Shown one piece after another: positions 46,772 to 52,499 of a stretch of DNA of 64,000 bases. The notes below the pieces were generated by a model, which searched no databases, was not told where the DNA came from, and saw only the letters and a list, made by a program, of their open reading frames with translations. The stretch comes from Sphingobium ummariense RL-3 (GTDB taxonomy: Bacteria > Pseudomonadota > Alphaproteobacteria > Sphingomonadales > Sphingomonadaceae). The translations under genes were made by a program, and so were the position numbers. The stretch lies in contig NZ_AUWY01000039.1 in NCBI RefSeq assembly GCF_000447205.1, positions 1-64,000 on the forward strand, given 5' to 3'. How positions within the stretch are numbered: the stretch's first letter is position 1; each line of letters begins with the position of its first letter.

Positions 46772-46811
46772 AGCGGCGCGAATCGCCTGATTCGCGCCGC
46801 TCGGAATTTTT
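46772..46811 (+). terminator. Intrinsic terminator after tuf
   Basis: A perfect 12-bp stem, AGCGGCGCGAAT (46772-46783) with ATTCGCGCCGCT (46790-46801), loop CGCCTG. It is followed after 5 nt by TTTTT (46807-46811). It lies between tuf and rpsJ and should end most str-operon transcripts. Confidence 0.8.
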
Positions 46812-46904
46812 GCCGCCTCGGATCGTCTTTCTCCGGCTCGAATGAGCTAGAAGGGCAGTAGCGGGGCGGTTTTGTTTTTGGCTCTTTCGCATCGGTACAG
46901 GAAT

Positions 46905-47213
46905 ATGGACAGCAACATCCGCATTCGCCTCAAGGCGTTCGATCATCGCGTGCTCGACCAGGCGACCGGCGACATCGCCGACACCGCCCGCCGCACGGGC
47001 GCTCTCATCCGCGGTCCCATTCCCCTTCCGACGCGCATTGAGAAGTTCACGGTCAACCGTGGCCCGCACATCGACAAGAAGTCGCGCGAGCAGTTCGAGG
47101 TCCGCACCTACAAGCGTATGCTTGACATTGTGCAGCCCACGCCGCAGACGGTCGACGCGCTGATGAAGCTGGATCTGGCTGCCGGCGTGAACGTGGAAAT
47201 CAAGCTGGCCTGA
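46905..47213 (+). CDS. rpsJ: 30S ribosomal protein S10
   Basis: A 102-aa S10 starting [20 protein letters not shown]. It contains [20 protein letters not shown] and the loop [17 protein letters not shown]. It is part of the 30S head and, as NusE, of the antitermination complex with NusB. The ATG 46905 is chosen from the S10 N-terminus; the frame upstream is non-conserved. It is the first gene of the S10 operon. A structured leader with a terminator-like hairpin separates it from rplC. Confidence 0.96.
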
Positions 47214-47355
47214 TCGCCGGCAAGTTCCTGCCAACCGCAAGGAGGGTGGGGTATCGGGCATTCCGCCTATGGTGGAGGCTCAAACGACACAAGGGATACC
47301 GCACGGCCGCTCCGGTGAACCGGTTCGGGTCGTGGTCCTGGTCCCCCGTCGCCTT

Positions 47356-47367
47356 CCCCGAGAGGGG
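47356..47367 (+). other. GNRA-capped hairpin in the rplC leader
   Basis: CCCC-GAGA-GGGG forms a short stem with a GNRA tetraloop, 45 nt before the terminator-like hairpin at 47412. The two may form a structured regulatory RNA. Confidence 0.4.
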
Positions 47368-47411
47368 TCGGCATCCAACCCTGACGGGGTGATCGCTATA
47401 TTCGGGTTGGG

Positions 47412-47441
47412 CCGCGAAGGAGAAATCCTGCGCGGTTTTTT
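47412..47441 (+). terminator. Terminator-like hairpin between rpsJ and rplC
   Basis: CCGCGAAGGA (47412-47421) pairs with TCCTGCGCGG (47426-47435) with one A-G mismatch, around a GAAA tetraloop, followed directly by TTTTTT (47436-47441). It lies inside the S10 operon, 50 bp before rplC, where an operon-internal terminator is unexpected. Attenuation is the likely role. Confidence 0.75.
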
Positions 47442-47490
47442 CGTTGGATACGCCCGCTGCTACGGTGGGCCTCTATGGGAGTAATCGGTG

Positions 47491-48246
47491 ATGCGCACAG
47501 GCGTGATCGCTAAGAAAGTCGGGATGACCCGTCTGTTCCAGGAGGACGGACGTCATATTCCCGTTACGGTTCTCGCCCTCGAGGGCAATCAGGTCGTCGC
47601 CCGCAAGGACGTCTCGTCGGATGGCTATGTCGCTGTCCAGCTCGGCGCGGGTGTTGCGAAGGTCAAGAATGTCGCCAAGCCGCAGCGCGGCCACTTCGCC
47701 AAGGCGGAAGTGGAGCCGAAGGCGCGCCTGGTCGAATTCCGCGTCGCCGAGGATGCGCTTCTCGATGTCGGCGCCGAGATCGCGGCCGACCATTTCATCG
47801 CCGGCCAGCTGGTCGACGTGGCGGGCCATACCCAGGGTAAGGGTTTCGCCGGCGCCATGAAGCGCTGGGGTTTCGGCGGTATGCGCGCCACCCACGGCGT
47901 GTCGATCAGCCACCGCGCCCACGGTTCGACTGGTAACCGCCAGGATCCGGGTCGCGTCTTCAAGAACAAGAAGATGGCTGGCCACATGGGTGACCGCGAG
48001 CGGACCCAGCAGAATCTCGAGATCGTCCGCACGGACGTCGAGCGCGGCCTGCTGTTCGTCAAGGGCAGCGTCCCGGGCGCCAAGGGCACCTGGCTGACCG
48101 TCTGCGACGCCGTCAAGGTCAAGCGTCCCGCTGACGCGCCCTATCCGGCGAGCCTGAAGCAGGCCGCCAACAGCAACACCGCTGCGGCAGAGACGCCGGC
48201 CGAAGAGGCTGCCGCTCCCGAAGCGACCGAAGGCCAGGAGGGCTAA
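47491..48246 (+). CDS. rplC: 50S ribosomal protein L3
   Basis: A 251-aa L3 starting [20 protein letters not shown] at ATG 47491; an in-frame GTG three bases earlier is also possible, and the RBS GGGAG lies 6-9 nt upstream of them. The core includes [20 protein letters not shown] and [13 protein letters not shown]. It ends in an Ala/Glu-rich tail of about 25 residues ([19 protein letters not shown]) absent from the 209-aa E. coli protein. L3 initiates 50S assembly. It is followed by rplD after 3 bp. Confidence 0.96.
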
Positions 48247-52334: not shown

Positions 52335-52499
52335 AGCCAGTCACCGACCCCCGGGGTCGAAATTCGAACGCGGGGCTGGCCTTTTCGTGAAGAAGGGGCT
52401 ACAGGCCCGCGCTTCGTGTTTCGAATCTTTCCGGGTCGACCACGAAATTCGGAACCGCCGGGATCGTCCCGGTAGGCCAAATGAGAAGGAACCGGATCC

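Follow-up and report, generated by a model that had tools for sequence, protein, structure and literature searches.

A conserved pseudoknotted RNA between rpsJ and rplC of Sphingomonadaceae, a candidate ribosomal-protein leader

The rpsJ-rplC spacer and its RNA structure

The window, a stretch of 64,000 nucleotides from Sphingobium ummariense RL-3 (contig NZ_AUWY01000039.1), carries the S10 operon on its forward strand. The spacer between rpsJ and rplC spans 277 nt, compared to at most 21 nt for the other gaps of the operon up to rpsQ. The names of rplC and the genes that follow it are presumed from their position and from known families. The features at the locus are listed below.

46772..46811, forward: intrinsic terminator after tuf, a 13-pair hairpin (46772-46801) with a tail ending in T5 (consensus scan)
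46881..46897, forward: boxA-like site GCTCTTTCGCATCGGTA, 24 nt before the rpsJ ATG, a candidate NusB-S10 (NusE) site (comparison of loci)
46905..47213, forward: rpsJ, encoding S10/NusE (ORF, translation)
47214..47490, forward: whole rpsJ-rplC spacer bearing the leader element (sequence, ORFs, comparison of spacers)
47293..47296, forward: 5' strand of P1, GGGA, followed by UACC; its partner is 47342-47345 (covariation)
47342..47345, forward: 3' strand of P1, UCCC (covariation)
47344..47350, forward: 5' strand of P2, CCCCGTC, the tested part being CCGTC at 47346-47350 (96.1% of cells paired)
47351..47372, forward: GAGA-capped hairpin inside P2 (sequence)
47375..47381, forward: 5' strand of the pseudoknot, CCAACCC, in the junction (covariation)
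47383..47389, forward: 3' strand of P2, GACGGGG (U-A/C-G/A-U changes at columns 71/123)
47404..47410, forward: 3' strand of the pseudoknot, GGGTTGG, adjoining the terminator (covariation)
47412..47441, forward: intrinsic terminator hairpin and U6 (sequence, dG, shuffles, relatives)
47443..47449, forward: GTTGGAT after the U-tract, which could re-pair with ATCCAAC of the junction (comparison of loci)
47452..47475, forward: hairpin GCCCGC..GTGGGC ending in GCCTCTA (comparison of loci)
47477..47481, forward: Shine-Dalgarno sequence of rplC, GGGAG (sequence)
47491..48246, forward: rplC, encoding L3, with its ATG at 47491, followed by rplD (L4), rplW and rplB (ORF)

Folded as a single sequence, the spacer has only a mild advantage in stability over its shuffles (z -1.97; 6/200 as good). 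As folding energy alone would not suffice, the case for structure rests on comparison. Out of 122 cores, 80 non-redundant ones were aligned by sequence alone, omitting 42 that were at least 85% alike to those kept. The structure tested has 29 pairs and comprises P1, Pa, P2 with its extension, Pb and the pseudoknot. In this alignment 86.8% of cells pair, against 80.1 in shuffles, with 183 double-change cells against 59.8 +/- 7.1, and none of 500 shuffles was as high on any of the five measures. Sliding the structure along the alignment lowered pairing to 33-50%; this control is biased towards the structure, which was derived from the same sequences, and relatedness can raise scores above those of shuffles.

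Taken singly, the pseudoknot and P1 still stand out on paired cells, double-change cells and covariation score. The pseudoknot has 95.6% of its cells paired and 22 double-change cells (6.3 +/- 2.0 shuffled), and P1 has 95.3% and 15 (1.6 shuffled). The weaker measures are pairs with a double change, for which 350/500 shuffles were as high for the pseudoknot and 28/500 for P1, and further pair types, with 33/500 and 173/500, respectively. P1 and the extended P2 have 2 nt in common. RNAalifold recovered only 6 nested pairs from the sequence alignment, in which the register shifts in one hairpin; the program cannot draw pseudoknots. The cores had been chosen by the word AUACC, so its invariance in the 80-row alignment is no evidence. 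In spacers chosen by the boxA-like site alone, the stretch is found in 111 of 112 among the matches listed, and the exception (L248), which has no ATACC word, keeps the rest of the element by eye.

The element is flanked downstream by a hairpin beside the rplC Shine-Dalgarno sequence. All 122 spacers have GCCT[CA]T[AG] at this place, and all five stem pairs form in 113 of the 122, against a mean of 34 when strands are swapped between loci. The CCUCU of this hairpin could also pair with the Shine-Dalgarno sequence itself.

Altogether, comparison of the loci shows a conserved, lineage-specific, pseudoknotted RNA before rplC in every locus examined, with its structure supported by covariation as in known ribosomal-protein leaders. 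The worry voiced in the preliminary description of this DNA, namely that the spacer might lack structural conservation, is dispelled, as its structure is strongly conserved. The same description had reported a GAGA-capped hairpin upstream of a terminator, which is indeed read as CCCC-GAGA-GGGG at 47356-47367 (extended by GCC..GGC, 47351-47372); it is variable in sequence across the family, and 68.4% of its cells are paired in an alignment that is poor at this place. The wording "inside the S10 operon leader" has to be amended, as the site lies between rpsJ and rplC and not before S10, and the span given, 47356-47441, leaves out most of the conserved element.

A small ORF at 47269-47484 was rejected as a leader peptide, since the spacer lengths (223-333 nt) vary out of frame. 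The upstream half of the spacer (~47217-47292; CCCTGC..GCAGGGTATCGG..GCTCAAACGACACAAGG) is strongly conserved in L001-L029 of the window's genus, and this conservation is missing in L030, L033, L034 and, by eye, in other genera.

Distribution of the element and of a boxA-like site before rpsJ

Similarity search with a 290-nt stretch gave matches in 35 of 61 genomes, including 34 of the 37 in the window's genus (Sphingobium); the 35th, in another genus (G045), is a 20-base match only. Thirty of the spacers so obtained, with lengths of 223-333 nt, can be aligned over nearly their whole extent, L030 being the exception in its first half. Of 196 genomes of the order queried with L3, 177 yielded an rplC. 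The resulting 143 Sphingomonadaceae spacers comprise 36 of the window's genus, of which 30 came from the 290-nt search, 3 from the L3 search and 3 were added last, and 107 from all other Sphingomonadaceae genomes with a match, 26 of these being loci of the L3 search. Among the 36 genomes of the genus, 33 were first met by similarity to the spacer and 3 through L3 alone or together with it. Another three genomes of the genus (G013, G026 and G029), in which L3 was not found, stand outside the counts; L031 was dropped as the same place as L001, and L062 had a 4-nt gap and a short rplC match that was later lost.

The element is present in 138 of the 143 Sphingomonadaceae spacers, that is, in 122 and then in 16 of 16 added loci, the latter entering presence counts only and not covariation counts. 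The five exceptions (L075, L092, L097, L111 and L115) have spacers of 37-97 nt and belong to four early-branching genera. In other families, 11 spacers from 11 genomes of seven families are all 4-6 nt long. A fusA tree of 30 genomes places all 21 element-bearing genomes tested on one side of a branch with support 98/93. The five element-less Sphingomonadaceae spacers all keep a GCCTCTG word before rplC and most of them, by eye, a hairpin; these are possibly forerunners or remnants of the leader.

All 138 elements lie upstream of a ribosomal-protein gene, though the spacers were gathered there, so place-independent support for the position comes from covariance-model searches. The covariance model built on the core found a single copy in the own genome. 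In the class, under strict filters, it found matches in 5 of 385 genomes, all five Sphingomonadaceae, one per genome and each at its rpsJ-rplC spacer; none of the 20 listed among the 380 genomes without a match is a member of the Sphingomonadaceae. These searches bear on a metabolite riboswitch or thermosensor, an idea for which the conserved pseudoknot and conserved loop nucleotides would supply a suitable ligand pocket. We regard it as very improbable, given the single copy in the own genome and the position before rplC in every locus examined; these loci had, however, been collected through rpsJ/rplC or the boxA-like site, so that other places could have come to light in the covariance-model searches alone.

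The nearly invariant boxA-like site directly before rpsJ was missed in the preliminary description. Its word GCTCTTT precedes rpsJ in 58 of 59 loci and then in 63 of 79 further ones, and the loci of the latter set without it number 16, all accounted for by the 11 of other families together with the five Sphingomonadaceae without the element. It is therefore found in 121 of 122 element-bearing loci and in none of the 16 element-less ones; with the 16 added loci, all of which have both, the total is 137/138. Information content is high over ~20 columns, compared to 0.01-0.38 bits in the 37 columns before, the 7-mer GCTCTTT itself being the selection rule for this profile. In the own genome, with rRNA leader stretches masked, GCTCTTTNNCATNGGTA was matched only at 46881-46897. 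The reverse test gave at least 120 named contigs with the longer 18-mer. In 8 of the 120 listed, rpsJ or rplC was missing from the stretch examined; the other 112 have both genes, 111 of them with ATACC.

The preliminary description had also considered control by S10, which is NusE. The boxA-like site directly before rpsJ gives this part circumstantial support, and NusB is encoded in the own genome. The gammaproteobacterial boxA consensus GYTCTTTAANA is, however, not matched beyond GCTCTTT, which is followed mostly by CGCA rather than AANA. The inspected stretches before the 23S genes of the own genome are either masked or show no such motif. As far as can be seen, the boxA-like site and the pseudoknot both arose on one branch. 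Their co-occurrence hence counts as one event and is no statistical proof of coupling, for which it is suggestive.

Upstream, the strong terminator at 46772..46811 separates tuf from rpsJ. The tuf-rpsJ gap is 96-681 nt (median 170) in 94 element-bearing loci and 40-68 nt in 9 loci of other families. It is 66-213 nt in the five element-less Sphingomonadaceae loci, and since it is widened in four of these five (96-213 nt), gap width by itself is no marker of the system. At 46812-46879 lies another hairpin, GCCGCC..GGGCGG-TTTTGTTTTT, with a T-run ending beside the boxA-like site; in many relatives, similar hairpins of unrelated sequence are seen by eye ahead of the site. A score of 120 of 121 loci for a boxB-like hairpin upstream of the site came from a test too loose for G+C-rich DNA and was not counted. 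The 18-mer also occurs in four records labelled Parvularculaceae, uncultured bacterium, Pseudothioclava and Flavobacterium (L186, L187, L269 and L279). Three of these loci have no rpsJ/rplC match, and L186, which has rpsJ at the contig end, is possibly a misbinned sphingomonad contig.

A predicted intrinsic terminator in Sphingobium spacers

The preliminary description was accurate in reporting a GAAA-capped hairpin with six Ts between rpsJ and rplC, which is read directly at 47412-47441. It consists of CCGCG (47412-47416), A, AGGA (47418-47421), the GAAA cap, TCCT (47426-47429), G, CGCGG (47431-47435) and TTTTTT (47436-47441), with a dG of -13.7 kcal/mol and a stem of 5+4 pairs broken by one A.G mismatch. 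A G+C-rich hairpin followed immediately by a U run is the make-up of an intrinsic terminator, though a simple consensus terminator scan did not list 47412-47441. Only 1 of 2000 dinucleotide shuffles of the spacer contained a hairpin with a dG under -12 kcal/mol and six or more T behind it.

A hairpin and U-tract lie at the same place in all 36 spacers examined of the window's genus. Across the family, 39 of 138 element-bearing spacers have a terminator behind the pseudoknot strand, and the other 99 fail the terminator test. The first 122 spacers include 36 with a terminator, namely 33/33 of the window's genus, one genome of g31 and two of g33, whereas the 16 added loci have it in 3/3 of the genus and 0/13 others. 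The count depends on the rule, in that one rule gives 36/122 with L036 and without L100, and the other 36/122 with L100 and without L036; L036, a g23 genome, has a similar hairpin with only four T. Of the 112 spacers in the named set, which was collected with the boxA-like pattern, 21 pass the terminator test among the matches listed, one of which (L283) is a false call inside another hairpin. The named terminator-bearing records include, among the matches listed, 15 of 17 Sphingobium with a readable spacer, in addition to Sphingomonas horti, S. formosensis, S. laterariae, S. quercus and Novosphingobium sp. Chol11, a record that shares its contig with a genome of the window's genus. The two Sphingobium records that fail are S. 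boeckii, which has none, and S. sufflavum, which has a hairpin with TTTTG.

The terminator is thus an addition and the variable part of the system, its hairpin sequence differing among lineages. As 99 of the 138 element-bearing spacers fail the terminator test, the conserved function must sit in the pseudoknot and the hairpin before rplC. Given this distribution, we think it unlikely that NusB-S10 mainly governs the system, with free S10 on the boxA-like site causing readthrough into rplC so that the leader would sense S10 and not L4, or, in a variant, with rpsJ translation stopped and coupling at the spacer thereby changed. Such control would fit a boxA-like site 24 nt before rpsJ that accompanies the element in nearly every locus and shares its branch of origin, as well as the identity of S10 with NusE; but readthrough cannot be the shared purpose where most spacers have no terminator by our test, and the boxA consensus is inexactly matched.

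The short U-tract, the broken stem and the lineage-to-lineage differences of the hairpin would instead suit a fixed, unregulated partial terminator combined with a processing or insulation element, which would set only the ratio of S10 to the proteins from L3 onward. This, too, appears improbable to us: such a device has no need for a covarying pseudoknot that is kept where the terminator is absent, nor for the AUACC stretch that nearly all boxA-selected spacers retain among the matches listed.

With a conserved intrinsic terminator standing ahead of essential genes, regulated attenuation is the most sensible interpretation, and the feedback attenuator of the preliminary description is partly supported in this sense, although most element-bearing spacers fail the terminator test. 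That description had named a strong promoter directly upstream of rplC as the finding that would count against attenuation; within the spacer there is no sigma-70-like consensus match, in a scan that may miss alphaproteobacterial promoters.

Among 33 loci of the window's genus, 32 would allow seven pairs between the junction and the GTTGGAT behind the U-tract, and GTTGG recurs after the U-tract in 34 of 36 terminator-bearing loci and, in the named set, in 18 of 21 among the matches listed. A general switch, in which GTTGGAT replaces GGGTTGG, was rejected, as no junction-GTTGG pairing is seen by eye in the terminator-bearing L036, L211 and L242; only at the level of the genus might GTTGG substitute for the first pseudoknot strand. 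No RNA antiterminator overlapping the terminator arms was recognised by eye.

A putative leader compared to known systems

The S10 operon is a textbook case of feedback by ribosomal proteins, and its leader in E. coli brings about L4-mediated attenuation as well as translational control. Searches with all Rfam 15 families gave no match in the spacer at gathering level or with E up to 5, the one listed match being a below-cut-off microRNA model at the tuf terminator, and the spacers of five relatives gave no relevant match with E up to 0.5. Mimicry of rRNA found no support either: the 9-mers and 10-mers that recur among the leaders are all missing from the visible 23S locus (1452/5622 bases masked), and of shorter words 4/40 8-mers, near chance, and 19/55 7-mers, at or somewhat above chance by a rough estimate, were found. 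The control by L4 suggested in the preliminary description draws no support from the Rfam and 9-mer searches.

We consider the spacer somewhat more probably than otherwise to be an uncatalogued cis-acting ribosomal-protein leader that separately controls the operon from rplC onward, with the pseudoknot as its core, L4 as its likely ligand and rpsJ controlled through the boxA-like site. In the core, as comparison of the loci shows, P2 encloses a hairpin and the junction strand, which pairs with a strand downstream to form the pseudoknot; the core is flanked by the short covarying P1 and by the hairpin ending in GCCTCTR beside the rplC Shine-Dalgarno sequence. An excess operon product, most likely L4, would bind the pseudoknot. 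In Sphingobium, where the pseudoknot strand adjoins the terminator, the bound fold would favour termination before rplC, and we infer that the pseudoknot may change termination in this way. In spacers without a terminator, the same fold would limit access of ribosomes to the rplC start. By analogy, attenuation would probably operate where the terminator exists and control of rplC translation elsewhere. L4 is named first as the ligand because in E. coli it is known to regulate this operon, as stated in the available part of PMC10931766.

The rpsJ gene would be under its own control, with NusB-S10 reading the boxA-like site at its ribosome-binding region, which is plausible by analogy with suhB, whose translation is repressed by boxA according to the available part of PMC5725501. 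The operon would thereby be split into an S10 loop and a loop from L3 and L4 onward. More tentatively, and with considerable doubt, S10 might repress or tune its own gene via NusB and boxA in most Sphingomonadaceae while the pseudoknotted leader restarts control from L3 and L4 onward, and terminator readthrough in Sphingobium, governed by both the leader ligand and a boxA-loaded polymerase, might join the two and set the balance between S10 and the other proteins.

Like the E. coli S10 leader, which is controlled by L4 (PMC10931766, available part), the element includes an attenuator in the S10 operon, could act on both transcription and translation, and has L4 encoded downstream. However, the E. 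coli leader lies before rpsJ, whereas the sphingomonad leader is pseudoknotted, has no match to an Rfam leader family and lies after rpsJ, which thus escapes it. That the same L4 leader has been moved behind rpsJ is therefore extremely unlikely in spite of the shared operon and the attenuator before rplC-rplD. Homology is largely refuted by the missing Rfam match, the different position and the pseudoknot, which leave L4 a candidate ligand.

Among the ribosomal leaders of Eckert and Weinberg 2020 (PMC7247131), as far as the available text goes, the alphaproteobacterial L2 motif is likewise a structured RNA that precedes genes for large-subunit proteins in the same cluster, but it starts at rplB as the first gene rather than at rplC; no bacterial rplC leader is listed there, and the only rplC leader in the table is archaeal (Archaeoglobi). 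Putative boxA sequences with the consensus GYTCTTTAANA precede rpsJ in three gammaproteobacterial genera (PMC5725501, available part), similarly less than 50 nt from the start of rpsJ (NusE). The sphingomonad site differs in its class, in reading GCTCTTTCGCA and not GYTCTTTAANA, and in having a second leader after rpsJ. The rpsJ motif RLC-47-1 is also a ribosomal leader candidate at rpsJ; it belongs to Peptostreptococcaceae and lies 5' of rpsJ, and the available part of PMC11109978 mentions no rplC element with it. The element is unmentioned in the available parts of PMC2704228, PMC2965389, PMC11109978, PMC8632094, PMC7566282 and PMC5770649, the fifth of which indicates that Term-seq exists for Zymomonas mobilis. 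Searches of the wider open-licence literature showed no description of it, though they would not reveal a motif placed in a supplement, and the accessible parts offer little on S10-operon control in Alphaproteobacteria. The leader is thus a candidate found in no database or paper searched.

S10/NusE is a ribosomal protein and an antitermination factor at once, and the combination of a leader after rpsJ and a boxA-like site ahead of it gives a testable argument that this protein has been removed from the common feedback loop. If the two circuits are joined in Sphingobium, the supply of an antitermination factor would set S10 against the other operon proteins. The locus also yields a putative genus-wide attenuator, a candidate for a new Rfam family and a new pseudoknot for studies of RNA-protein recognition. 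Besides the rpsJ-rplC spacer, the S10/spc cluster has one more large gap, 165 nt between rpsQ and rplN (52335-52499), which may hold another leader.
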